Shown: piece after piece, positions 20,799-32,735 of the stretch | Position numbering within the stretch: position 1 is the first letter of the stretch | Layout of the letters: every line of letters begins with the position of its first letter | Assembly: GCF_038561935.1 (NCBI RefSeq) | Contig: NZ_CP102770.1 | Coordinates: 1,116,001 to 1,180,000, forward strand | Source: Myxococcus stipitatus | GTDB taxonomy: Bacteria; Myxococcota; Myxococcia; Myxococcales; Myxococcaceae | Reading direction: 5' to 3' | Length of the DNA: 64,000 nucleotides | Notes under the pieces: model-generated | What the model saw: only the letters and a program-made list of their open reading frames with translations | Database searches by the model: none | What the model was told of the DNA's origin: nothing | Program-made: the position numbers and the translations under genes

Positions 20799-21704
20799 CT
20801 ATGACAGCAGGTGCCGCAGTGCTCCTTCCACCTCGGGGAAGCGGAAGGTGAAGCCCGCCTTCTGCGCGCGCGAAGGCAGCACGCGCTGACCCTCCACGAC
20901 GACCTTCGCCATCTCCCCCAGGGCCGCCTTCACCACGAAGGCGGGGACGTGAATCACCGACGGCCGTCCCAGCGCATGGCCCAGCGCGTGCGCGAAGGCC
21001 GCGTTGGTGACGGGCTGGGGCGCCGTGGCGTTGAAGGGGCCTTCCAGCGGCGTGTCCCCGAGCACGAAGCACAGGAGCGCCTGCGCGTCCTCGCGATGAA
21101 TCCAGCTCACGTACTGCCGGCCATTGCCGACGGGCCCTCCAGCGCCGAGGCGGAAAGGGGGCAGCATCTTGTGCAGCGCGCCGCCCTCGGGGTGCAGCAC
21201 CACGCCCATGCGCACCACGGCCGTGGAGATGTTCGCCTCCCGCGCGCGCGCCGCCTCCGCCTCCCATGCCACGCACACCCGCGCGAGGAAGTCGTCCCCG
21301 GGCGAGCTCTCCTCCGTCAGCGGCTCCGCCTCGCGCGCGCCTCCGTAGTAGCCGATGGCGGACGCGGACACGAAGCGCTTCACCGTGCCCGCCGCCTTCG
21401 CCGCCTCCACCAAGGACCGTGTCCCCTGTACCCGGCTGTCGTGGATGCGCTGTCTGGCATGCGCGTTCCACCGCTGCGCCACGGGCTCACCCGCCAGATG
21501 CAGCACCGCCTCCGCGCCGGCCAGGGCCTCCGGAGACACCGCCGTCCCCGTGTCGTACGCGGCCCCCGTCACCCCCGGAGGCAGCCGCTCCAGGGCCTTG
21601 GGCACGTCCCGCGCGAGCACGTGGACGTGGTGGCCCTGCCTCAACAAACCCTGGACAACGCCCACGCCCAGAAAGCCCGTGGCCCCCGTGACAGCCACCT
21701 TCAT
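20799..21704 (-). CDS. TIGR01777-family epimerase/oxidoreductase
   Basis: A 301-residue extended short-chain dehydrogenase of the TIGR01777 (YfcH/SulA-like) group. The N-terminal nucleotide-binding motif is VTGATGFLGVGVV. Then come VLHLAGEPVAQRWNAHARQRI, SASAIGYYGG (the SDR Ser and Tyr region) and the diagnostic VVRMGVVLHPEGGALHKMLPPFRLGAGGPVGNGRQ run; FNATAPQPVTN also matches the family. The physiological substrate is unknown. Its start overlaps the stop of the upstream thioredoxin-fold gene in an ATGA (21701-21704), so the two are translationally coupled. It reads away from the carotenoid operon. Confidence 0.88.
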   Translation of the reverse strand: MKVAVTGATGFLGVGVVQGLLRQGHHVHVLARDVPKALERLPPGVTGAAYDTGTAVSPEALAGAEAVLHLAGEPVAQRWNAHARQRIHDSRVQGTRSLVEAAKAAGTVKRFVSASAIGYYGGAREAEPLTEESSPGDDFLARVCVAWEAEAARAREANISTAVVRMGVVLHPEGGALHKMLPPFRLGAGGPVGNGRQYVSWIHREDAQALLCFVLGDTPLEGPFNATAPQPVTNAAFAHALGHALGRPSVIHVPAFVVKAALGEMAKVVVEGQRVLPSRAQKAGFTFRFPEVEGALRHLLS

Positions 21705-22264
21705 GGCGTGGCTCCCGGGGCCACGGGGGTCGTCAGGTCCACGCCCACCAGCTGGCTGAGCGCGGAGAAGAACGCCACCTGCTCCTCGGGCTTCATCCGC
21801 CCGGAGTGCCGGTAGACCACCGCGCCTCGCGCATCGAGCAACAGGACATTCGAGGTCTTCATGGGCAGGGACCATGGGGATGCACCCATCGCTCCGTCCA
21901 GGTCGACCAGGATGGGCACCCCCACCTTCTTTTCTTCATCCCTCACATAGGAGAGGGCAATCTGCCGTGCGGGGAAGAAGTCGAACGCCTTCAGGTTGGC
22001 CACCGCCACCACCCAGGCGGAGCCCAGCAGGTTCCGCTCACGCCCCCGCGCGAAGAGGTCCTCCTTCAGTCCCGCGTTGAGCGTGGTGGAGTCCCTGTCC
22101 TCGTAGAACAAGATGACCGGTTTGCCCCGCCACCGGGACAGCCGGACCGGGTCCCCGCTGGAAGTTCGTAACGCGGCATCGGGTGGGACGTCCGGTGGAT
22201 TGGATGCGAGAGCGGCCTGCGTGAGCAGGACCACTGCCAGCGTGCCGGTGATCCACAGCTTCAT
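21701..22264 (-). CDS. Exported thioredoxin-fold protein lacking cysteines
   Basis: A 187-residue protein with a signal peptide (hydrophobic residues 3-20, cleavage probably after ALA). The body (about 30-170) has a redoxin-like fold: RLSRWRGKPVILFYEDRDS, a KVGVPILVDLDG strand and NVLLLDARGAVVYRHSG with the typical final beta-hairpin. It contains no cysteine at all, so it cannot be a conventional thiol oxidoreductase; YtfJ-like proteins show similar loss. The function is unknown, possibly binding. It starts in the spacer shared with the carotenoid operon promoter and is divergent from it. The downstream oxidoreductase is joined by ATGA. Confidence 0.72.
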   Translation of the reverse strand: MKLWITGTLAVVLLTQAALASNPPDVPPDAALRTSSGDPVRLSRWRGKPVILFYEDRDSTTLNAGLKEDLFARGRERNLLGSAWVVAVANLKAFDFFPARQIALSYVRDEEKKVGVPILVDLDGAMGASPWSLPMKTSNVLLLDARGAVVYRHSGRMKPEEQVAFFSALSQLVGVDLTTPVAPGATP

Positions 22265-22280
22265 GGAAGGTGACCCCTAG

Positions 22281-22319
22281 TGGACAAGGTTTATACAGAC
22301 ATTAGACATAGCCTTGACA
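22281..22319 (+). promoter_or_regulatory. CarA/CarH operator: four TNNACA repeats at 11-bp spacing
   Basis: TGGACA (22281-22286), TATACA (22292-22297), TAGACA (22303-22308) and TTGACA (22314-22319) are spaced exactly 11 bp apart, one per helical turn. The Thermus CarH operator is made of tandem 11-bp direct repeats with TNNACA core, and CarA/CarH homologues are encoded at the end of this operon. The fourth repeat is also the -35 hexamer, so bound protein would block RNA polymerase. Confidence 0.75.
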
Positions 22320-22342
22320 AGCCATGGACGCAACGCTACCTC
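22314..22342 (+). promoter_or_regulatory. Predicted sigma70 promoter of the carotenoid operon
   Basis: Consensus -35 TTGACA (22314-22319), a 17-bp spacer, and a weak -10 (TACCTC, 22337-22342). Transcription would begin near 22349. This places the ATG at 22324 upstream of the transcript, so translation of crtE must begin later. Confidence 0.6.
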
Positions 22343-22380
22343 TGGAAGGACGGACAGCTGTGAAACTGGAGGAATCACCC

Positions 22381-23466
22381 GTGGCCCTTCCTCGTCTCGC
22401 GGTGTTGCCGTCCCCGGCGGAAGTCCCCCTGGAGCGGGCGTGGCTGTCGCTCATCCATGCGCAGGTGGAGGCGTCGTTGGGGGAGCTCTTCGAGCTGCCC
22501 GATGAGGTGGGCATCGACGCGCGCTGGTCTCGGGCGATGGAGGAGGCGAAGGCCTTCACGTTGCGCCCCGCGAAGCGGGTGCGGCCCCTGCTGGTGATGG
22601 CGGGGCACTGCCTGGCGCGAGGCACGCCCGTGGTTCCCTCCGAGCTGTGGCGCTTCGCCGCGGGGATGGAGCTGCTCCACACCTTCCTGCTCATCCACGA
22701 CGACATCGCGGACCGCGCCTCGCTGCGGCGCGGGGGCGCGGCGCTGCACCGCGTGCTGGCCCCGGGCCGCATGGGCGAGGACCTGGCGGTGGTGGTGGGA
22801 GACCACCTCTTCGCGCGCTCCTTGGAGGCGATGCTGGAGTCGGGGCTGCCGGGCGTGGCGAAGGTGGTGCGCCACTACCTGGCGGTGTGTCGGCACACGG
22901 CCGCGGGCCAGTACCTGGACCTGGCGCTGGGGCACGCGCCGCTGTCGGAGGTGTCGCTCTTCCAGGTGCTGCGCGTGGCCTATCTCAAGACGGCGCGCTA
23001 CGGCTTCTGCGCGCCCTTGGTGTGCGGCGGGATGCTGGGCGGCGCGAGCGCGGAGGTGCTCGAGGGCCTGGAGCGCGTGGGCCGCCACGTGGGGCTCGCG
23101 TACCAGCTCCAGGACGACGTGCTGGGGCTCTTCGGAGACTCGCGCGTCGCGGGCAAGGCGTCGGACGGGGACTTCATGCAGGGCAAGCGCACCTTCCCGG
23201 TGCTCGCGGCGCTGGCTCGGGCCACGCCGAGCGGGCGCGCGGAGCTGGAGGCGCTGTGGTCGCTGCCCGAGTCGGGCAAGGACGCGGAGGCGCTCCTGCG
23301 GGCACGGGCGCTGGTGGAGCAGTTCGGCGGTCGCGCGGCGTGTGAGCGGATGGTGGAGCGGAGCACCCGCGCCGCCCGGCGGGCGCTCCAGTCGCTGCCC
23401 AACTCCCATGGCGTGAGGGACTTGCTGGATGTCCTCATCGTCCACCTCTCGCGGCGTGTGTCTTGA
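22381..23466 (+). CDS. crtE: Geranylgeranyl diphosphate synthase
   Basis: A 361-residue trans-prenyltransferase that condenses farnesyl and isopentenyl diphosphates to GGPP, the carotenoid precursor. The first Asp-rich motif is HDDIAD (Asp107, Asp108, Asp111) and the second is LQDDVLG (Asp245, Asp246); the prenyltransferase signatures AKRVRPLL and LLHTFLLIHDDI are clear. The GTG at 22381 is chosen because GGAGGA sits 7 bases upstream; an ATG at 22324 lies between -35 and -10. It is the first gene of the 11-gene operon. The next gene starts 8 bases after its stop. Confidence 0.92.
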   Translation: MALPRLAVLPSPAEVPLERAWLSLIHAQVEASLGELFELPDEVGIDARWSRAMEEAKAFTLRPAKRVRPLLVMAGHCLARGTPVVPSELWRFAAGMELLHTFLLIHDDIADRASLRRGGAALHRVLAPGRMGEDLAVVVGDHLFARSLEAMLESGLPGVAKVVRHYLAVCRHTAAGQYLDLALGHAPLSEVSLFQVLRVAYLKTARYGFCAPLVCGGMLGGASAEVLEGLERVGRHVGLAYQLQDDVLGLFGDSRVAGKASDGDFMQGKRTFPVLAALARATPSGRAELEALWSLPESGKDAEALLRARALVEQFGGRAACERMVERSTRAARRALQSLPNSHGVRDLLDVLIVHLSRRVS

Positions 23467-23473
23467 GGAACCC

Positions 23474-25030
23474 ATGAGCGGACGCACGCAAGGCAGACGG
23501 GTGGTGGTGGTGGGCGCGGGCGTGGGAGGCCTGGCCGCGGCGGCGCGGCTGGCGCACCAGGGCTTCGAGGTGCAGGTCGTCGAGAAGACAGGGGCGCCGG
23601 GTGGGCGCTGCGGCCGGCTGCGAGTGGACGGGTTCACCTGGGACCTCGGTCCCACCATCGTGCTGATGCCGGAGGTGTTCGAGGAGACCTTCCGCGCGCT
23701 GGGCCGCCGAATCGAGGACTACCTGACGTTGCTCAAGTGCGAGCCGAACTACCGGCTGCACTTCCGGGATGGCTCGGACGTCACCTTCACCTCCGAGCTG
23801 TGCGCCATGGGACGCGAGCTGGAGCGGGTGGAGCCCGGCAGCTACGCGCGCTACCTCGCCTTCCTCGCGCGGGGACGTGTCCAGTACCGCACCAGCCTGG
23901 ACCACCTGGTGGGCCGCAACTACGCGGGCATCACCGACTACCTCTCGCCGCGAGTGCTGGCCCGCATCTTCCAGGTGCGCGCGCACCGCCGCATGTACTC
24001 GGACGTCAGCCGCTACTTCCGCGATGACCGGCTGCGCGCGGCGATGACGTTCCAGACGATGTACCTGGGCGTGTCTCCCTTCGAGTCGCCCGCGGTGTAT
24101 GGCCTCCTGCCCTTCACCGAGCTGGGCGTGGGCATCTGGTTTCCGAAGGGTGGGCTGTACGCCATTCCCCAGGCGCTGGAGCGGCTGGCGCTGGAGGAGG
24201 GCGTGCGCATCCACTACGGGACGCCGGTGGAGCGCATCCTCACGGAGGGCGGGCGCACCACGGGGGTCCGGTTGCAGGGCGGCGAGGTGATGGAGGCGGA
24301 TGCCGTGCTGTGCAACGCGGACCTGCCCTACGCCTACGAGAAGCTGCTGGACCCGGAGGCCACCCAGCTCAAGCGGCGCGAGAAGCTGCGCTACACGTCC
24401 AGCGGCTACATGCTCTACCTGGGGCTGCGGCGGAAGTACCCGGAGCTGCTGCACCACAACGTGGTGTTCGGCCGCGACTACCGGGGCTCGTTCGACGACA
24501 TCTTCGAGCGCTTCCGCGTGCCGGAGGACCCGAGCTTCTACGTCAACGCGCCCACGCGCACGGATGCGTCGATGGCGCCCGCGGGCAAGGACTCGCTCTA
24601 CGTGCTGGTGCCCGTGCCGCACCAGCATCCGTCGCTGGACTGGAAGGTGGAGGGGCCGAAGGTCCGCGCCAAGGTCTTCGCGCGGCTCGCGGAGCTGGGC
24701 TTTCCGAAGCTGGAGTCGGACATCGAGGTGGAGCGTGTCTTCACGCCCGATGACTGGGCGGGGACGTTCAACCTGGCGCGTGGCAGTGCGTTCGGCCTGG
24801 CGCAGAACTTCTTCCAGATTGGTCCCTTCCGGCCGTCGAACCAGGACGCGAAGGTGAAGAACCTCTTCTTCGTCGGGGCCTCGACCCAGCCGGGGACGGG
24901 GCTGCCCACGGTGCTCATCTCCGCGCGGCTGGTGACGGAGCGGCTGACGGACTGGGCGCGGGCGCGGGGCGTGACGCTGGTGTCTCGCGAGCGGGCGCCG
25001 ACGTCCGTGTCGAAGAAGGAGGCGGCGTGA
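23474..25030 (+). CDS. crtIb: Phytoene desaturase (first of two)
   Basis: A 518-residue FAD-dependent carotenoid desaturase. The N-terminal Rossmann motif is VVVVGAGVGGLAAAARLAHQG (split here as a GxGxxG pattern). The C-terminal flavin segment is NLFFVGASTQPGTGLPTVL, the CrtI-type signature. It inserts double bonds into phytoene at the membrane. Order and operon position match CrtIb of the Myxococcus xanthus carB operon, where two CrtI enzymes cooperate. The ATG at 23474 has GAGGA 4 bases upstream. The stop overlaps the crtB start as GTGA. Sequence alone does not separate phytoene from later desaturation steps. Confidence 0.9.
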   Translation: MSGRTQGRRVVVVGAGVGGLAAAARLAHQGFEVQVVEKTGAPGGRCGRLRVDGFTWDLGPTIVLMPEVFEETFRALGRRIEDYLTLLKCEPNYRLHFRDGSDVTFTSELCAMGRELERVEPGSYARYLAFLARGRVQYRTSLDHLVGRNYAGITDYLSPRVLARIFQVRAHRRMYSDVSRYFRDDRLRAAMTFQTMYLGVSPFESPAVYGLLPFTELGVGIWFPKGGLYAIPQALERLALEEGVRIHYGTPVERILTEGGRTTGVRLQGGEVMEADAVLCNADLPYAYEKLLDPEATQLKRREKLRYTSSGYMLYLGLRRKYPELLHHNVVFGRDYRGSFDDIFERFRVPEDPSFYVNAPTRTDASMAPAGKDSLYVLVPVPHQHPSLDWKVEGPKVRAKVFARLAELGFPKLESDIEVERVFTPDDWAGTFNLARGSAFGLAQNFFQIGPFRPSNQDAKVKNLFFVGASTQPGTGLPTVLISARLVTERLTDWARARGVTLVSRERAPTSVSKKEAA

Positions 25031-26043
25031 GCACCTCCACGGATGGGGCGCTGGTGCGCCAGGGGTACGCGTTGGCTCGGAAGGTGACGCGTCACCACGC
25101 GAAGAGCTTCTTCTTCGCGTCGTATCTGTTGTTCGGACAGCGCCGGAAGGCGGCGTTCGCGCTGTATGCGTTCTGCCGACGGCTCGACGACCTGGTGGAT
25201 GAGGCGGGGCCGGGGATGGAGGAGCTGTCCGTGCGGCTGGCTCGGGCGCGGAGCCGGGTGGCGGAGCTGTATGTGTCCATGCCGGAGCTGGCATCGGAGG
25301 AGCTGGGGCCGCCGGGGGAACGGCTCCAGGGTGGGGGAGCACGCTCGCCGTGGGACGCGGGGGAGTTCGCGGCGCTCGCGCATACGGTGCGGCACTACCG
25401 GATTCCGGAGCAGCCCTTCCAGGACCTCATCTCCGGCATGGAGATGGACCTGACGAAGCACCGCTATGCGACGTGGGCGGAGCTGGACCTCTACTGCTAC
25501 CGCGTGGCGGGTGTGGTGGGGTTGATGCTGACGCCGGTGCTGGGGTGCTCGGATGTGACGGCGCTGCGGCCGGCGGCGGACCTGGGCCGGGGCATGCAGC
25601 TGACGAACATCCTGCGCGACGTGCGCGAGGACCTGGAGCGAGGCCGGGTGTACCTGCCCGCCGAGGAGCTGGCCGCGTTCGGGCTGTCCGAGGAGGACCT
25701 GCGGCGAGGCACGGTGGATGCGCGGTGGCGGGACTTCATGCGCTTCCAGGTGGCTCGGGCGCGCTCGTACTACGCGAGGGCGGCGCAAGGGGTGCCTTCG
25801 CTGACGGGCTTCGGGAGCCAGCGGATGGTGCGGCTGATGGGCGCCATCTATGGCGACATCCTTCGCGACATCGAGGCGCGGGACTTCGACGTGTTCAGCG
25901 CGCGGGCGCATGTGACGACGAAGCGCAAGCTGGTGCTGGCCGCGGCGTCGTTCCTGCGTCCCGAGTCCGTGCTGCCCACGCTTCCCGAGGGCACGCGCGT
26001 GCCACTGCTTCCGGGGGTGCTGGAGGAGCGGCGTCATGGGTGA
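25027..26043 (+). CDS. crtB: Phytoene synthase
   Basis: A 338-residue squalene/phytoene synthase that joins two GGPP into phytoene. Visible signatures: HHAKSFFFAS, the first Asp-rich motif RLDDLVDE (Asp54, Asp55, Asp58), YCYRVAGVVG and the second motif QLTNILRDVREDLERGR, which together hold the Mg-diphosphate ions. The GTG start at 25027 overlaps the crtIb stop (GTGA) and the stop lies 8 bases inside crtIa, so it is tightly coupled both ways. Length and motifs are normal for the family. Confidence 0.95.
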   Translation: MSTSTDGALVRQGYALARKVTRHHAKSFFFASYLLFGQRRKAAFALYAFCRRLDDLVDEAGPGMEELSVRLARARSRVAELYVSMPELASEELGPPGERLQGGGARSPWDAGEFAALAHTVRHYRIPEQPFQDLISGMEMDLTKHRYATWAELDLYCYRVAGVVGLMLTPVLGCSDVTALRPAADLGRGMQLTNILRDVREDLERGRVYLPAEELAAFGLSEEDLRRGTVDARWRDFMRFQVARARSYYARAAQGVPSLTGFGSQRMVRLMGAIYGDILRDIEARDFDVFSARAHVTTKRKLVLAAASFLRPESVLPTLPEGTRVPLLPGVLEERRHG

Positions 26044-27499
26044 GGCGCGCAAGAGAGTCGCGGTGGTGGGGGGCGGCATCGGCGGGCTCACCGCCGCGGG
26101 GCTGTTGGCTCGGGATGGGCATGACGTGACCCTCTTCGAGGGCGGGGCCTCGCTGGGGGGCAAGGCCCAGGCCGTCACGGTGGATGGCGTGACGCTGGAC
26201 ACGGGGCCCACGCTGTTGACGTTGCCGGACCTGGTGCGGGGCACGTTCGAGCAGCTGGGCGCACTGGACCTGATGCCTCCGCTCACGGAGCTGAAGACGC
26301 AGTGTGCCTACCGGTTCGCGGATGGGAGCACGTTCACCGCGTTCAAGGAGCTGGAGCGCACCGTGGCGAGCGCCGACCGCGTGAGCCCAGGAGAGGGTGA
26401 AGGGCTTCGTGACTTCTTCGCCGAGGCCGAGGCCATCTGGAGGGCCGCGGGTGAGCCCTATCTGGAGGCGCCATTCGAGGGCATGGCCGGCTTCATGGGG
26501 CGCGTGGCTCGGCGGGGGATTGGCGCGGTGCTGGCGGGGATGCGGATGTCGTCCCTGCATGAGCTGGCCGTGAAGCACCTGCGCACGCCCCAGCTTCAGC
26601 AGTACGTGGGCCGCTTCGCGACCTACGTGGGGGCCTCGCCCTATGAAGCGAGCGCCGCCTTCGCGCTGATTCCGCACATCGAGCGGGCGATGGGGGTCCA
26701 CCATGCGCAAGGGGGCGTGGGCGCGCTGGTGGAGGCGCTGGGGCGCGCGGTGCGCAGGCTGGGGGTCACCGTGCATCTCCAGACGAAGGCGCGCTTCGAG
26801 CGCACCGGCGACGGCTATCGCGTGAGCGCGGGCGCGGAGGCCGCGGGCTTCGACAGCGTGGTGGTGAACGCGGACCCGCTGGAGTCGCTGCATCGCGGTG
26901 AGGAGTCGCTGGCGCTCTCCGGCTACGTGTTGTTGCTGGAGGTCGAAGGTCGCCCCTCGCTGCCGCACCACACGGTCCTCTTCGGTGGGGACTATCGGCG
27001 CGAGTTCGACGAGCTGTTCCGTGGGCAGCTCGCGTCGGACCCCACGGTGTACTTCTGCAACCCGTCCGCCTCGGACACCACCATGGCTCCGCCGGGCCGC
27101 ACGGGCCTGTTCGTCATGGTGAACGCACCGCCCTTGCCCGTGGGGGCCGGGAGGGCGGAGGCGGAGGCTCGCGCCTGGGAGCAGCACGGCGAGCGGGTGA
27201 AGGCGCAGATGTTCGAGAAGCTCTTCGCGCACTACCCGGAGCTGCGCGGACGCGTGCGGGTCCTCGGCCAGCGCTCGCCGGTGGACTTCGCGGCGCAGGG
27301 AGCGCCGGGCGGGTCCATCTATGGCTTCCTGCCTCACGGCAAGTTCGGTCCGTTCCGTCGTCCTCGCATCCGAGGCACCACGCCGGGCCTGTTCTTCGCG
27401 GGCGGGGGGACCCATCCCGGTGGGGGGGTGCCGCTGGTGATGTTGTCGGGGCGCTTCGCCGCGGAGCTGGCCTCGGTGCATCTGCGGAGGCGTGCATGA
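26036..27499 (+). CDS. crtIa: Phytoene/carotenoid desaturase (second of two)
   Basis: A 487-residue CrtI-like FAD oxidoreductase with the dinucleotide motif VVGGGIGGLTAAGLLARDG, TLDTGPTLLTLPDL near residue 50, and the C-terminal FFAGGGTHPGGGVPLVMLSG signature. It corresponds by position to CrtIa of the M. xanthus carB operon. Its divergence from crtIb suggests a division of labour: early phytoene desaturation versus a CrtD-like late step cannot be decided from sequence. It starts 8 bases before the crtB stop and its stop overlaps the crtC start (ATGA). Confidence 0.88.
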   Translation: MGEARKRVAVVGGGIGGLTAAGLLARDGHDVTLFEGGASLGGKAQAVTVDGVTLDTGPTLLTLPDLVRGTFEQLGALDLMPPLTELKTQCAYRFADGSTFTAFKELERTVASADRVSPGEGEGLRDFFAEAEAIWRAAGEPYLEAPFEGMAGFMGRVARRGIGAVLAGMRMSSLHELAVKHLRTPQLQQYVGRFATYVGASPYEASAAFALIPHIERAMGVHHAQGGVGALVEALGRAVRRLGVTVHLQTKARFERTGDGYRVSAGAEAAGFDSVVVNADPLESLHRGEESLALSGYVLLLEVEGRPSLPHHTVLFGGDYRREFDELFRGQLASDPTVYFCNPSASDTTMAPPGRTGLFVMVNAPPLPVGAGRAEAEARAWEQHGERVKAQMFEKLFAHYPELRGRVRVLGQRSPVDFAAQGAPGGSIYGFLPHGKFGPFRRPRIRGTTPGLFFAGGGTHPGGGVPLVMLSGRFAAELASVHLRRRA

Positions 27500-28419
27500 G
27501 CACCTCGCGAGTCATTCCGATGCCGCCGAGTGAGGCGGGGGCGTATCGCTGGTTCTACGCGGATGTCTCGGCGGGGCCGTTCAGCGCGGTGTGCATCTTC
27601 ATGTTGGGCTCGCTGTTCTCACCGCGCTACTCGGTGGCCGCGAGGCGCGGCGGGGGGCCGATGGAGCACTGCGCGGTGAACTTCGCGCTCTACCACGAGG
27701 GGGGGCGTCGCCTCTGGGTGCTGAGCGAGTACCCCCAGGCGGAGGTGGTGGAGGGGAAGCAGCTTCGCATCGGCCGCTCGACGCTGAGCTATGGGGAGGA
27801 CGGCGCGGTGCGGATGGAGGTGGCGGACTGGACGGCGCCGTGGGGGCGGCCCGTCAGCGCGCGGCTCACGCTGGAGCCGCTGACGCCGTCGGGGGAGGTG
27901 GTGCGGCTCATGCCGGGGCTGCCGCACTACTGGCAGGCGGTGGCGCCGCGTGCCCGGGCGCGGCTGGAGGTGCCCTCGTTGGGGGTGAAGGAGGAAGGGC
28001 TCGGCTACCACGACACGAACCACGGCGATGAGCTGCTGGGGGAGCGGCTCGCGGGGTGGCACTGGACGCGGACGCATCATCGAGAGGCGACGGTGGTGGA
28101 CTACCACCTGCCGGATGGCGTGGAGCCGCTGCGGATGGTGGCGCGCGAGGAGGGGGTGTGGTGTGGCTGCGGTTCGGAGCCGCCGCTGCGCTCCACCGTC
28201 ATCACGGGCTGGGGGCTGCGCGTGCCCTCGCAACTCCAGACGGGCAACGTGGTGGTGGGGGAGGGGCGCCTGCTCGAGTCGTCGCCCTTCTATGCGCGCA
28301 TGGAGGCGCGGCAGGACTCGCTGGACTGCATGGGCGAGGTCGCGGACTTCCGCCGCTTCCACTCACCCTTCATCCGCTGGATGGCGCACTTCCGCACGCG
28401 CATGGGGACGGCGGCATGA
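27496..28419 (+). CDS. crtC: Acyclic carotenoid 1,2-hydratase (hydroxyneurosporene synthase)
   Basis: A 307-residue protein of the CrtC family, which adds water across the terminal double bond of acyclic carotenoids. Typical lipocalin-like stretches are visible: YRWFYADVSAGPFSAVCIFMLGSLFS at the N-terminus (a family hallmark when read in two parts), FALYHEGGRRLWVLSE and GYHDTNHGDELLGERL with conserved His/Asp residues. The hydroxyl introduced is the attachment point used for glycosylation in myxobacterial carotenoids. It overlaps crtIa and the glycosyltransferase by 4 bases each. Confidence 0.88.
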   Translation: MSTSRVIPMPPSEAGAYRWFYADVSAGPFSAVCIFMLGSLFSPRYSVAARRGGGPMEHCAVNFALYHEGGRRLWVLSEYPQAEVVEGKQLRIGRSTLSYGEDGAVRMEVADWTAPWGRPVSARLTLEPLTPSGEVVRLMPGLPHYWQAVAPRARARLEVPSLGVKEEGLGYHDTNHGDELLGERLAGWHWTRTHHREATVVDYHLPDGVEPLRMVAREEGVWCGCGSEPPLRSTVITGWGLRVPSQLQTGNVVVGEGRLLESSPFYARMEARQDSLDCMGEVADFRRFHSPFIRWMAHFRTRMGTAA

Positions 28420-29564
28420 GCGCACTGACCAACGGGGGGCCTGGCTGGGGGCTCGTCGGCGTCGCCTGGGCCGTGCTCGCCATGGGCTTCAGCGCCGTGG
28501 CGCTCTTTCGCCTCGGGCGCCTGCGACGCGCGCACGTCCCGCTGGGCACCCGGCCCGCCGTGCTGCTGTTGCGCCCCGTCGATGCACCGACGGCTCGCGA
28601 GCTGGAGAACCTCACGCGGCCCATCGACTACGCGGGGCCGCTGGAGCAGGTGGTCGTGTCGCCCTATCGGCCTCGACTCCCTCCAGGCGTGAGCTGGCTG
28701 CCGAGCGACCCTCCCGCTCCCAACCGCAAGGTGGGGCACCTGCTCTACGCATTGGAGGCCCTGCCCGTGGGCTCGCGGGTCGTGCTGGCGGTGGACGCGG
28801 ATGTCGCCGTCACGGGCGCTCTCGTGGAGGGGCTCGTGGCCCCGCTGCTTCAAGGCGCGGCGCTGAGCACCGCGGCCCCGACGCCCATCGATGCGCATGA
28901 CGGCGCGGGCCGAGCCATGGCGGGTCTCCTCCGCTACACGCACCACAGCTTCCTCGCGCTCCAGGTGATGAGCGCGGGCGCGAAGGCCATCTGTGGCAAG
29001 GCCCTGGGCGTGTCCCCCACGGCGATGGAGGAGCTGAAGCACTTGTCCGACCACATCGGCGAGGACCTGGAGCTGTCGAAGCGTCTGCACGCGCGAGGAC
29101 TCCAGGTCGCGCTGAGCACCGTGCCCGCGTGGGTTCCCCTCGGAACCGTGCGCACGTGGGACGTGCCGCTGTCCCGCTTCACGCGCTGGATGCGCGTGCT
29201 GGCCAGCCACCGCCCCGCGCTGTTCCCCACCGTGCCGCTGCTGTTCACGCCCACGGTGCCGCTGGTTCTGCTGGCCGCGCTCCTGGGCTCGCCCCTGTTG
29301 TCGCTCGCGGTGACGGTGCTCGTGGGCCTGCGTGTCCTGCTGGCCCTGCGGCTCGACGCGCTGAGCGCGCCGCATGAAGAAGCGTCGCGTGGGCGGAGCC
29401 GCGCGATGACGGACTGGCTGCTGGGAGAGCTGCTGCTCCTCGCGGCCTTCGGGGTTTCACTGGGGCGGCAGGGCACGGTGACGTGGCGCGGGCACACGTA
29501 CGCGTTGCTGCCTGGAGGCCGGATGGTACGGGTGTGGCCGGAGCTGAACGGAGGACCGGGATGA
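28416..29564 (+). CDS. Membrane glycosyltransferase family 2-like protein in the crt operon
   Basis: A 382-residue protein with an N-terminal transmembrane segment (about 8-28), a GT-A catalytic domain (about 43-260) and two or three C-terminal membrane helices (about 270-315 and 345-360). The domain shows GTRPAVLLLRPVDAPT at the start, the AVDADVAVTG motif that carries the metal-binding DxD, and a GEDLELSKRLHARG segment like the ED acidic motif of ceramide glucosyltransferase-like GT2 enzymes. It probably glycosylates the hydroxyl made by CrtC, as myxobacterial carotenoids are glycosides; the sugar cannot be predicted. Coupled by ATGA to crtC and to crtYc. Confidence 0.78.
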   Translation: MSALTNGGPGWGLVGVAWAVLAMGFSAVALFRLGRLRRAHVPLGTRPAVLLLRPVDAPTARELENLTRPIDYAGPLEQVVVSPYRPRLPPGVSWLPSDPPAPNRKVGHLLYALEALPVGSRVVLAVDADVAVTGALVEGLVAPLLQGAALSTAAPTPIDAHDGAGRAMAGLLRYTHHSFLALQVMSAGAKAICGKALGVSPTAMEELKHLSDHIGEDLELSKRLHARGLQVALSTVPAWVPLGTVRTWDVPLSRFTRWMRVLASHRPALFPTVPLLFTPTVPLVLLAALLGSPLLSLAVTVLVGLRVLLALRLDALSAPHEEASRGRSRAMTDWLLGELLLLAAFGVSLGRQGTVTWRGHTYALLPGGRMVRVWPELNGGPG

Positions 29565-29929
29565 CTTACGCGCGATTTCTAGGGCTGTTCGTCTTGCTGC
29601 CCATTCTCTTCCAACTCTGGCGCTACCGGCGCACCTTCACCCCGCGCACCCTGGCGCCGATGGGCCTGTTGCTGGTGGTCGTCTACGCGGCGACGTCGCC
29701 CTGGGACAACCTGGCGGTGAAGTGGGGCCTCTGGGGCTTCGATGCACACCGCATCTGGGGCATCAAGCTGGGCTACCTGCCGCTCGAGGAGTATCTCTTC
29801 TTCGGCCTCCAGACCTTGCTCGTGGGGCTGTGGGCGCGGGCGCGACTGGCTCGCGCCCTGGCGCCGAAGGAACCCGCCGTCTCCGTCGTGCCGAGCCCCG
29901 TGCTGGCCCCTCGCGAGGTGTCGTCATGA
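29561..29929 (+). CDS. crtYc: Lycopene cyclase subunit CrtYc
   Basis: A 122-residue membrane protein with three hydrophobic segments and the conserved PLEEYLFF motif (about residues 70-77) of the heterodimeric lycopene cyclase family. Together with CrtYd it converts an end of lycopene into a beta ring. The start ATG is inside the ATGA overlap with the glycosyltransferase stop, and its stop overlaps the crtYd start. The C-terminal 20 residues are Pro/Val-rich and outside the conserved fold. Confidence 0.9.
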   Translation: MTYARFLGLFVLLPILFQLWRYRRTFTPRTLAPMGLLLVVVYAATSPWDNLAVKWGLWGFDAHRIWGIKLGYLPLEEYLFFGLQTLLVGLWARARLARALAPKEPAVSVVPSPVLAPREVSS

Positions 29930-30285
29930 TGGAGACGCGCTGGGCCTATCTCATCCACCTGTTGGCGTGGACGCTGCCCGTCATCCTCTTCCAGCTGTGG
30001 ATGCTGGTGCGCCACTACCAGGAGCGCTCGGGCGCCGTGCTGCGCGCGGTGCTGCCTCCCGCCTTCATCGTGGGCCTGTACCTCGCGGTGGCCGACCACC
30101 TGGCCATCACCACGGGCATCTGGAACTTCGGTGACGGCCTGCACCTGGGCATCTACCTGGGCGTGGTGCCGCTGGAGGAGGTCATCTTCTTCCTGGTGAC
30201 CAGCGTGCTGGTGTCCCTGGGCCTGGCCCTCTTCACGGGACTGGTGGAGCTCCTGGCGAAGCGGTCGGAGGCTCGCGCCCCGTGA
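29926..30285 (+). CDS. crtYd: Lycopene cyclase subunit CrtYd
   Basis: A 119-residue membrane protein with three predicted helices and the second PLEEVIFF motif (about residues 83-90). CrtYc and CrtYd are similar to each other and are fused in fungal-type cyclases; here they are separate polypeptides. An ATG at 29926 or the adjacent ATG at 29929 can start it; the first overlaps the crtYc stop. The stop overlaps the acyltransferase GTG by 4 bases. Confidence 0.9.
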   Translation: MMETRWAYLIHLLAWTLPVILFQLWMLVRHYQERSGAVLRAVLPPAFIVGLYLAVADHLAITTGIWNFGDGLHLGIYLGVVPLEEVIFFLVTSVLVSLGLALFTGLVELLAKRSEARAP

Positions 30286-30959
30286 TTCCCGCGGCCAAGG
30301 GGGGGCCCTTCGGGTGGATGCTCGACGCGTACATCGGGCGGAAGTTCCGCTCGGCGTTTCGCGGGCTCTGGGTGCGCGGGGAGCTTCCCGCGCCAGGGCC
30401 CGGGCGGCTCGTGTACTTGAATCACACCAACTGGTGGGACGGCTTCATGCTGCACCAGCTCTCACACGTCGCGGGCTGGGATGGCTATTGCCTGATGGAG
30501 GAGGAGAACCTCCGCCGCTACCGCTTCCTCGCGCGCATCGGCGCCTTCAGCATCCGCCGCAAGGACCCTCGCTCCTCCGTGGAGTCACTGCGCTACGCAC
30601 GCGAGCTGCTCCGCCGTCCGCGCTCGGCGCTGTATGTCTTTCCCGAGGGAGAGCACCGCCCCCCGGGCGAGCTGCCCCTGCGGATGGAGCGCGGCGTGGA
30701 GCTGCTCGGGCGGGTGTCTCGCGTGGAGTGTGTGCCCATCGCCGTGCGCTACACCTTCTTCGAGCATGAGCGCCCGGACGTGCTGCTGGAAGTAGGGACG
30801 CCGCATCCTCCCGGCCCGCTGTCCGTCTACCAGTCCGGCCTGGAGTCGGTGGTGCGCAGGCTCCTGGCCGCGACGACGCTGGACGGCTTCACGCTCAAGG
30901 TCTCCGGCGCGCGCGGTGTCGCCGAGCGATGGGACACCGTCCGAGGGATGTCGCCATGA
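30282..30959 (+). CDS. PlsC-like acyltransferase
   Basis: A 225-residue lysophospholipid-acyltransferase-like protein: the catalytic motif is NHTNWWD (an NHxxxxD version of HX4D), followed by FPEGEHRPPG (the FPEG motif that binds the phosphate or acceptor). It has no signal peptide; the N-terminal helix may contact the membrane. In the carotenoid operon its likely task is attaching a fatty acid to the sugar of the carotenoid glycoside, since esterified carotenoids are characteristic of Myxococcus; phospholipid acylation is the alternative. The GTG at 30282 is set by the GTGA overlap. The stop overlaps the carA start. Confidence 0.82.
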   Translation: MIPAAKGGPFGWMLDAYIGRKFRSAFRGLWVRGELPAPGPGRLVYLNHTNWWDGFMLHQLSHVAGWDGYCLMEEENLRRYRFLARIGAFSIRRKDPRSSVESLRYARELLRRPRSALYVFPEGEHRPPGELPLRMERGVELLGRVSRVECVPIAVRYTFFEHERPDVLLEVGTPHPPGPLSVYQSGLESVVRRLLAATTLDGFTLKVSGARGVAERWDTVRGMSP

Positions 30960-31822
30960 TGGTCCGCATCCGCACCATGGCCCGACTCACGGGCATCCGA
31001 GAGGCGACGCTGCGCGCGTGGGAGCGGCGCTACGGCTTTCCTCGTCCCTCCCGCCTGGAGGGCAACAACTACCGCGTCTACTCCCGCGAAGAGGTGGAGT
31101 CCGTGCGCCGCGTCGCCCGGCTCGTCCAGCGGGATGGGCTGGCGGTGAGCGACGCCATCGCCCAGGTGGAGAACGCGTCGCTGGATGTGCCGCCCGGCAT
31201 GGACCGGCTCACGGCGCGCTTCTGGCCCGCAGCGCGGTTGATGGACACCGAGGAGATGTCGCGGGTGCTGACGACCGCCCGGGAGTCGCTCGACGTGGAC
31301 ACGTACTGCGACGAGTTCCTCCTCCCGCTGCTGCGCGAGATGAGCTCCTGGCTGGACATCGCCCGGGAGCACCTGGCGTCGGCCCTGGTCCGCCATCGGC
31401 TGTGGCAGGTGCTGTTGAGCGTGGAGAGCCCGGCCCTGGGTCCTCGCGCACTCCTGGCGTGCCCCCCTGGGGACTTCCACGAGGGCGGACTTCTGGGCCT
31501 GGGCGTCCACCTCAAGCGCAAGGGCTGGCGCGTGACGATGCTCGGGGCGGACACTCCCGCTGACGCGCTGCGTGCCGCCTGTGCGCAGGTGTCTCCGGAC
31601 CTGGTGGCGCTGTCCTTCGTGCAGAGCCGCGAGCGGGCGGAATTTCAATCCCTGCTGGAAGAGGTGCTACGGGCCTGTTCGCCCGTGCCCGTCGCGCTCG
31701 GGGGCCCGGCCGCGCGCCAGCACCTGCTGACCACCTTCAACACGGGGGCTCAGTACGCCGAGTCCGCCGAGGAGATGATTGCCCTGTGGAATCAGGCGCG
31801 ATGCGCGCAGAATCGCCCCTGA
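30956..31822 (+). CDS. carA: Transcriptional repressor CarA (MerR HTH plus B12-binding-like domain)
   Basis: A 288-residue protein. The N-terminal MerR-type winged helix (about 1-75) has MARLTGIREATLRAWERRYGF and the NYRVYSREEV wing; the C-terminal half (about 95-288) is a cobalamin-binding-like domain with the DxHxxG motif (Asp173, His175, Gly178). The light-sensing Wx9EH motif of CarH is not intact: here Trp132 is followed after only five residues by Glu138-His139, and no His follows the Trp. This agrees with M. xanthus CarA acting without B12. It represses the operon promoter, presumably at the repeat array at 22281-22319. The start at 30956 overlaps the acyltransferase stop (ATGA) with GAGGG 8 bases upstream. 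Confidence 0.9.
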   Translation: MMVRIRTMARLTGIREATLRAWERRYGFPRPSRLEGNNYRVYSREEVESVRRVARLVQRDGLAVSDAIAQVENASLDVPPGMDRLTARFWPAARLMDTEEMSRVLTTARESLDVDTYCDEFLLPLLREMSSWLDIAREHLASALVRHRLWQVLLSVESPALGPRALLACPPGDFHEGGLLGLGVHLKRKGWRVTMLGADTPADALRAACAQVSPDLVALSFVQSRERAEFQSLLEEVLRACSPVPVALGGPAARQHLLTTFNTGAQYAESAEEMIALWNQARCAQNRP

Positions 31823-31832
31823 CCTCATCCCC

Positions 31833-32735
31833 ATGGCCGAGCGCACCTACCGAATCCACGTAGCGGCGGAGCTGTCAGGTGTTCGGGTGGAGCTCATCCG
31901 CGCCTGGGAGCGTCGCTACGGAGTCCTTCAGCCGTTGAGAACCCCCGCGGGCTACCGCGTCTACACGGAGCGGGACGTGGCCGTGCTCAAGCGGCTGAAG
32001 AAGCTGACGGATGAGGGCGTGGCCATCAGCGAGGCCGCGAAGCTCCTCCCGCAGCTGCTCTCGGAGCTGACCGCCACGCCCGCGGCGAACGGCGATGTGC
32101 ACGGCTCCGCCGCGGCGCTGACCTTCTGGCGGGACGCGGCGCTGATGGCCGCGGAGGCGTATGACCAGGGCGGCGTGTCCACGGTGGTGGATGACGTGCT
32201 GTCCGCGCTGCCTCCGCTCAAGGCCTTCGAGGGAGTGCTCGCTCCGCTCCAGCGCGAGGTCGGCGAGCGATGGCACCAGGGCGAGCTGTCGGTGGCGCAG
32301 GAGCACCTGGTGACGCAGGTGGTGCGCGCGCGGCTGGTGAGCCTGCTGCACTCGGCCCCCGAGGGCGGACGGCGCCACGCGGTGCTCGCGTGTTTCCCGG
32401 ACGAGGAGCACGAGCTGGGGCTCCTGGGCGTGGCGCTGCGCCTGCGGCACGCGGGCTTCCGGGTGACGTTGTTGGGGCAGCGCGTGCCGGCGGGAGACCT
32501 GGGGCGCGCGGTGGCGAGTCTGCGGCCGGAGCTCTTGGGGCTGTCCGCCGTCACCGACTCCGGCAAGGACGTCTTTCGCGACACGCTCTCCCAGCTCATG
32601 CGCGCGCTGCCGGCGGACCTCTCCGTCTGGGTGGGCGGCGCGGCGGCGGTGGCTCACGCGGACACCGTCACCCGCCTGGGCGCGCGGCTGTTCAGCGACG
32701 AGCGGGATTGGGAGCGCTTGCTGGCGGGGGAGTGA
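31833..32735 (+). CDS. carH: B12-dependent photoreceptor repressor CarH
   Basis: A 300-residue protein paralogous to CarA. The MerR HTH (about 1-75) is followed by a helical cap and cobalamin domain with every residue expected for a light sensor: Trp147-His148, then Glu157-His158 giving the Wx9EH motif, and the ExHxxG loop (Glu191, His193, Gly196). His193 is the expected lower axial ligand of adenosylcobalamin. By homology to M. xanthus and Thermus CarH it binds AdoCbl in the dark, forms tetramers and represses; light breaks the Co-C bond and releases DNA. It begins 10 bases after the carA stop without a clear SD. Its last 44 bases overlap the gene on the opposite strand. Confidence 0.92.
   Translation: MAERTYRIHVAAELSGVRVELIRAWERRYGVLQPLRTPAGYRVYTERDVAVLKRLKKLTDEGVAISEAAKLLPQLLSELTATPAANGDVHGSAAALTFWRDAALMAAEAYDQGGVSTVVDDVLSALPPLKAFEGVLAPLQREVGERWHQGELSVAQEHLVTQVVRARLVSLLHSAPEGGRRHAVLACFPDEEHELGLLGVALRLRHAGFRVTLLGQRVPAGDLGRAVASLRPELLGLSAVTDSGKDVFRDTLSQLMRALPADLSVWVGGAAAVAHADTVTRLGARLFSDERDWERLLAGE

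Follow-up and report, generated by a model that had tools for sequence, protein, structure and literature searches.

The window analysed here, a stretch of 64,000 nucleotides from Myxococcus stipitatus, contains a carotenoid (crt) operon on the forward strand, a gene that diverges from it and, between the two, an array of short direct repeats. The features concerned are listed below, where DR denotes a full and dr a degenerate repeat unit and the counts refer to the survey of related loci described further on.

21701..22264, reverse strand: divergent gene of 187 aa, probably thioredoxin-like and without cysteine, accompanying the array in all 63 anchored loci
22277..22287, forward strand: DR1, a unit of the form nnnnTnnACAn with TGGACA at 22281-22286, full in 51 of 63 anchored loci
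22288..22298, forward strand: DR2, TATACA at 22292-22297, full here and in 17 of 63 loci, degenerate (dr2) in most relatives
22299..22309, forward strand: DR3, TAGACA at 22303-22308, full in 62 of 63 anchored loci
22310..22320, forward strand: DR4, TTGACA at 22314-22319, which is the -35 box; the anchoring itself fixes this unit in 63 of 63 loci
22321..22331, forward strand: dr5, TGGACG at 22325-22330; T in 54 of 54 unique arrays, last motif letter (22330) G in 50 of 54
22337..22342, forward strand: -10 box of P crt, TACCTC, 17 bp after the -35 TTGACA
22381..23466, forward strand: crtE, which opens the crt operon and encodes a polyprenyl synthetase (Pfam PF00348, E 2.1e-48 on the ORF from 22324)
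30929..31822, forward strand: carA ORF, MerR plus B12-binding domain, no intact Wx9EH (PDB 2jml, E 6.7e-34)
31779..32735, forward strand: carH ORF, MerR plus B12-binding domains, Wx9EH intact WHQGELSVAQEH (best PDB match CarH 5c8d, E 6.7e-27)

The mechanically predicted crtE ORF started at the ATG at 22324, inside the promoter. The start is probably the GTG at 22381, which we preferred over the GTG at 22360 and which has a GGAGG (22368-22372) 8 bases upstream. Ten ORFs from 22324 to 32735 were scanned against Pfam. After crtE came two amino-oxidase-type desaturase genes flanking a phytoene synthase gene; of the further ORFs in the operon, one had no counterpart in Pfam, one matched a glycosyltransferase, one a lycopene cyclase (weakly, under the Pfam cut-off) and one an acyltransferase, while the last two, carA and carH in this order, matched MerR plus B12-binding domains. 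The sequence RAWERRY (RxWERRY) was present in both predicted regulators. For CarH, Wx9EH and the H-motif of D/ExHx2G/P...SxT/V...GG were found by regular expression and RxWERRY and x41-SxV-x27-GG were counted by eye, a regular expression requiring SxT having given no match; for CarA, the SxV/GG part of the B12 motif was counted by eye. PDB 2jml, the match of the carA product, is the DNA-binding domain of CarA (PMC8156234). By these signatures, ORF 31779-32735 is a predicted CarH (MerR with RxWERRY, Wx9EH and B12 motif) and ORF 30929-31822 a predicted CarA (CarA-type DNA-binding domain, B12 motif and no intact Wx9EH). The array precedes this crt operon ending in carA-carH and marks the candidate promoter of these genes.

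Direct reading of the array bore out the sequence-only reading that had drawn attention to it: TGGACA, TATACA, TAGACA and TTGACA follow each other at exact 11-bp steps and the last of them is the -35 box. That reading had counted four repeats, and four full units are indeed present, but the number of units is five: it overlooked TGGACG, also in register, which departs from the motif only in its last letter, G in place of A. One step upstream of the array, GTGACC at 22270 is no unit. The -10 box TACCTC is the hexamer quoted for the M. xanthus PB promoter in PMC8156234. A sigma-70 scan of 22200-22420 on both strands gave nothing at threshold; the scan accepts only -10 boxes that end in T, unlike TACCTC.

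TNNACA is likelier in AT-rich promoter DNA, a general argument for which shuffles are the sole test, and the repeats could in principle reflect chance or the composition of the promoter around the -35 box and be read by no repressor. The three-unit pattern gave two overlapping matches in the window, where 100 shuffles had 0.00 on average. In the whole genome of 10,166,364 bases, a perfect three-unit array was matched twice, in overlapping positions that both belong to the array at 22281, and the reversed pattern used as control had 0 matches. When the 55-mer was shuffled 200,000 times by mononucleotides, three tandem units appeared in 2 shuffles and four in 0. Self-identity of the 55-mer at lag 11 was 0.50; among 20,000 shuffles, 6 attained this value at lag 11 and 88 at some lag between 5 and 20. 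Genome uniqueness, window shuffles and 55-mer shuffles led us to reject a chance origin of the repeats. The period of 11 recurs, too, among the loci of more distant genera (11 of 20), and footprints have been published on the orthologous site (PMC9304148), so that a composition effect read by no repressor is improbable in the extreme. A genome search for a second CarA/CarH site with up to 3 of 16 mismatches returned three other places, scattered and unconvincing, against one for the control pattern, and therefore no second four-unit site is claimed.

For the survey, 96 genomes of the family were searched for CrtE, and 84 gave a match. Among the 96 CrtE matches listed, 94 were taken with their flanks, one (G048 C717, at a contig start) was omitted and the window was used for the match in its own genome, which made 95 loci, 75 in nine genera and 20 in more distant genera. 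In the 75 loci, arrays were anchored by TTGACA as unit 4 with at least 14 of 20 motif letters. An anchored array was found in 63 of the 75 (63 of all 95 crtE-type loci). Eleven of the 12 remaining loci had neither array nor divergent gene, and their genomes contained another crtE locus that was anchored; they were treated as paralogous crtE genes. The twelfth, L093 of G029, belongs to a real crt cluster whose array contains one extra base pair, inserted between units 2 and 3, so that units 1-2 no longer stand in register with the rest. A Myxococcus-type crtE and array were also seen on a contig labelled Comamonas sp. KCTC 72670 (L013), a record that is probably mislabelled or contaminated.

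A strong CarA match followed the array in 53 and a CarH match in 59 of the 63 anchored loci, as counted within the fetched stretches. Neither was present in four short stretches (L086, L092, L095 and L145), and CarH occurred without a strong CarA match in four loci of genus g7 and two of g5. In L097 and L098 (genus g5), CarA matches upstream of carH and outside it amounted only to short pieces (53% over 52 aa and 38% over 129 aa); in these two loci carA may be lost or decaying although the array persists.

The most common arrangement was DR1-dr2-DR3-DR4-dr5 (39 of 63), followed by four full units plus dr5 (8), dr1-dr2-DR3-DR4-dr5 (6) and dr1-DR2-DR3-DR4-dr5 (5); all five units were full in two loci, and three other patterns occurred once each. 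These two loci (L124 of G004 and L129 of G007, genus g3) have more full units than any arrangement in the portion of PMC9304148 available to us. The sequence-only reading had looked to orthologous promoters for conservation of its four units, and here the survey supported it in part: the 11-bp array is shared by most crtE loci of the nine genera, but units 1-4 are all full in just 10 of 63, because unit 2 is usually degenerate. Of these 10, the window, G070 and G061 belong to one clade; the rest come from genera g6 (four loci), g3 (two) and g7 (one). On a tree of CrtE-CrtI-CrtB, for which CrtI and CrtB were found at 60 of the 63 anchored loci, the state with units 1-4 all full needs 6 changes and a full DR2 needs 8, as expected of a four-unit site that is recurrent, not general, in these sequences. 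The members of the window's clade (the window itself, G070, G061 and G072) have a spacer of 17 bp between the -35 and -10 boxes, and the other 59 loci, one of which (L096) has a poor -10 match, have one of 18 bp. The 1-bp difference (22320-22336 in the window; loci L052-L054) sits just after dr5. Three of the four loci with the 17-bp spacer carry the perfect four-unit array, and G072 has a degenerate third unit.

Scored as at least 11 of 12 letters over three units, period 11 fitted all 63 anchored loci, 11 of the 20 distant loci and none of the 11 paralogous loci, while the other periods from 7 to 16 reached at most one locus per group. The count in the anchored loci is favoured by the anchoring, so the distant loci provide the independent, unanchored test; nine of these 20 had no three-unit array at the threshold. 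At the level of single columns, the T/ACA positions of units 1, 2, 3 and 5 averaged 2.75 changes on the tree compared to 4.64 for the other columns of those units and 11.4 for 30 columns of the upstream flank. The in-phase T/ACA comb was the lowest of 11 phases, with the comb shifted by one column close behind (3.06), and phases 6 and 7, the two columns just after the motif, were also well conserved. A Mann-Whitney comparison of T/ACA columns with the rest gave p 0.005, a value that ignores relatedness. Of its motif, unit 2 retains CA alone, the T and the first A having changed 12 and 9 times, respectively; since these two positions change as often as the flank, the perfect DR2 of the window may be the result of drift rather than selection. 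The fifth unit presents the opposite picture, as its composition among the unique arrays points to a nearly fixed TnnACG unit and not to a decaying one. Perhaps dr5 is kept weak on purpose, or is used by another factor in the promoter spacer.

For M. xanthus, a perfect inverted repeat upstream of the -35 box has been described (PMC9304148), which we took as AAGGTT-N6-AACCTT, read from the surveyed sequences. CarA dimers, and those of CarH, might read such inverted repeats, the model put forward first for M. xanthus, the 11-bp direct repeats being incidental. The arms pair at 6 of 6 positions in 23 of the 54 unique arrays (all 14 of genus g6, 9 of 19 of g1 and none elsewhere), and this is the best inverted-repeat centre in the family. 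However, direct repeats persist where the arms fall to 4 of 6 pairs, as in the window (AAGGTT and GACATT), which thus lacks the perfect inverted repeat of a palindromic CarA operator, or to 1-4 of 6, as in g2, g3, g5, g7, g8 and g20. Arm columns also changed more, with a mean of 4.33 against 2.75 for T/ACA columns, some columns belonging to both sets, and M. xanthus CarA is described as binding the palindrome-free Cystobacter operator (PMC9304148). Going by these counts, direct repeats are family-wide and the palindrome is found only near M. xanthus. In the nearest genera conservation alone does not exclude a palindrome, because the inverted repeat is itself conserved in g6 and g1; taken together, these data make it very unlikely that the inverted repeat is what the repressors read. 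The family-wide result agrees with PMC9304148, whose EMSA and footprint results point to recognition of direct repeats, not palindromes, by CarA as well, and it adds evolutionary support for direct repeats over palindromes that is independent of the published footprints. The sequence-only reading had presented direct repeats as a new and distinct alternative to the M. xanthus palindromes; this claim to novelty does not hold, as PMC9304148 had already proposed a direct-repeat operator for P crt of Cystobacterineae.

The array, its uniqueness in the genome, its conservation and the regulator genes with their motifs are direct observations. With both repressor genes lying in the same operon, the reading of the site as a CarA/CarH direct-repeat operator overlapping the -35 box is the most likely one, and we are highly confident that CarA and CarH share it as their operator at the promoter of the carotenoid operon (P crt, PB), where it comprises five tandem 11-bp direct repeats. 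Because a step of 11 bp corresponds to approximately one repeat per DNA turn, the repeats would lie on one face of the DNA. The CarA and CarH repressors would cover four adjacent repeats, either DR1-DR4 or DR2-dr5, and would block sigma-A RNA polymerase at the -35 box. Light would photolyse the AdoCbl of CarH and, by analogy with relatives, light-induced CarS would remove CarA, whereupon transcription from crtE through carH could start. In the clade of the window, the perfect unit 2 would turn DR1-DR4 into an uninterrupted four-unit site. Plausibly, the full DR2 and the 17-bp spacer represent a stronger promoter held by a stronger operator, a difference in strength that we infer. M. stipitatus would be expected to behave like its relatives, in which others have demonstrated binding, footprints, control by B12 and light, and CarS. 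No binding, footprint or light experiment on M. stipitatus was found in the literature searched, and the word stipitatus is absent from the main text of PMC9304148, a study of 27 genomes. As a natural variant with four perfect repeats and a 17-bp spacer, the site suits tests of repeat quality against promoter strength, and the survey extends the published model by identifying unit 2 as the freely varying unit.

Sites of this type are already understood in close relatives, to which the window contributes a variant arrangement; the one lead with some novelty lies in the position that the array shares with the divergent gene. This gene is single-copy in the genome, and 17 bp separate its ATG from the T of DR1. 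Besides its constant presence at anchored loci, it was found in 79 of the 95 loci overall and in 0 of the 11 paralogous ones, and 62 of the 146 genomes in a phylum sample had it, including three from outside the family. The first residue could be aligned in 60 loci, where it was 11-29 bp from DR1 (in three of them, from genus g7, the codon was CTG and not ATG), so that the promoter of the divergent gene must overlap the array or lie beyond it. The encoded protein has no cysteine in any of the anchored loci, and one or two in 4 of the 16 other loci. Pfam gave hints to AhpC-TSA, YtfJ and Redoxin, all below the cut-offs (E 0.025-0.035), and sequence matches in the PDB were weak and mostly of the thioredoxin family (E 0.26-0.77). 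The structure model was poor (pLDDT 54.9, with 88 of 187 residues under 50) and, searched with Foldseek, it matched ResA-like thioredoxins (best E 1.5e-05, TMq 0.43). These matches suggest that the protein probably has a thioredoxin-like fold, and its N-terminus, read by eye, that it is probably exported. The divergent gene is unmentioned in the text of PMC9304148 and PMC8156234 available to us, and no title on it was found in a search that covered little of the subscription literature on the M. xanthus cluster.

This arrangement raises the question of whether the array is a two-way operator that represses crtE and the gene at 21701-22264 alike, a reading that would add to that of a shared CarA/CarH operator and does not compete with it. 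The consistent pairing of gene and array, the absence of the gene from paralogous loci, its short distance to DR1 and its single copy all fit such a role, as does a promoter-like match that runs backwards through the array:

22290..22320, reverse strand: candidate promoter of the divergent gene within the operator, TTGTCA (22320-22315), 19 bp, TATAAA (22295-22290), 10 of 12 consensus matches

Across the family, whose sequences are related, the backward match averaged 8.21 of 12 against 6.97 in shuffles. In contrast, no conserved divergent promoter was found in the family array alignment, where the -10 columns vary freely and array columns 9-14 have 4-13 changes each. In G162, from another family, the gene is divergent to crtE without any array (best four-unit score 10 of 16 in 14 kb), which indicates that the gene can be linked to crtE in the absence of the operator. 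G100 has two copies of the gene, and the 14 kb surrounding each of them showed no array; one copy (C139) is about 9 kb from crtE. In G129 the gene and the best crtE match, a weak one, are on different contigs. On balance we regard two-way repression as possible but slightly less likely than not. If it occurs, the divergent gene would belong to the light regulon and the photoprotective response would include a new envelope component, encoded by a family-wide conserved and unstudied gene, which would plausibly have its role alongside carotenoids or membranes rather than in thiol redox reactions. As a conserved neighbour of the array, this gene offers a concrete candidate for an additional element of the light response.

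The assignment as a shared CarA/CarH operator can finally be set against the known systems. The P crt class has at least two tandem nnnnTnnACAn units accompanied by degenerate ones, and the window has four full units plus TGGACG; its -35 TTGACA is embedded in DR4, as it is here. In this class, some 55 bp are bound by CarA and, in the dark and only when AdoCbl is present, by CarH. The Myxococcus P crt is given as DR1-dr2-DR3-DR4(-35)-dr5 in PMC9304148, while the window, G070 and G061 have DR1-DR2-DR3-DR4-dr5. Since the same study lists several arrangements, with three DRs as the general case, the array of the window is a variant and not a non-member. A single promoter region is considered there for the crt cluster in Cystobacterineae.

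The closest system is P crt (PB) of M. xanthus, for which one operator common to CarA and CarH has been established (PMC8156234). It likewise has five 11-bp units in register, a TTGACA -35 box within unit 4, dr5 after the -35 box, a TACCTC -10 box, and carA and carH in the operon. It differs from the window in having dr2 (ATCGCA) instead of a full TATACA unit and an 18-bp spacer (L008) instead of 17 bp, and in its inverted repeat, which is broken here. P crt of C. fuscus, as described in PMC9304148, also consists of tandem DRs with the -35 box in DR4 and two overlapping four-repeat sites, footprinted in that species. There, CarH bound as two dimers produced four evenly spaced hydroxyl-radical tracts with a spacing of 10-11 nt; Cystobacter CarH forms dimers, two per four repeats, and is the only myxobacterial CarH purified natively in that study. 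The arrangement in C. fuscus is dr1-DR2-DR3-DR4-dr5 and CarA is missing, whereas here unit 1 is full and carA is present. Among more distant systems, the CarH operators of Thermus thermophilus (three DRs) and Bacillus megaterium (four DRs, comparable to the four full units here) are likewise built of nnnnTnnACAn units that recur every 11 bp and overlap with promoter elements (PMC9304148, PMC8156234). Both are bound by tetramers according to these sources, one AdoCbl-CarH tetramer occupying the four tandem DRs of the B. megaterium type. The sequence-only reading had proposed that the four units might engage all four DNA-binding heads of a tetramer; the myxobacterial precedent, in Cystobacter, is two dimers on four repeats. 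Unlike the T. thermophilus and B. megaterium sites, that of the window combines a carA gene in its operon with a fifth unit in its array.
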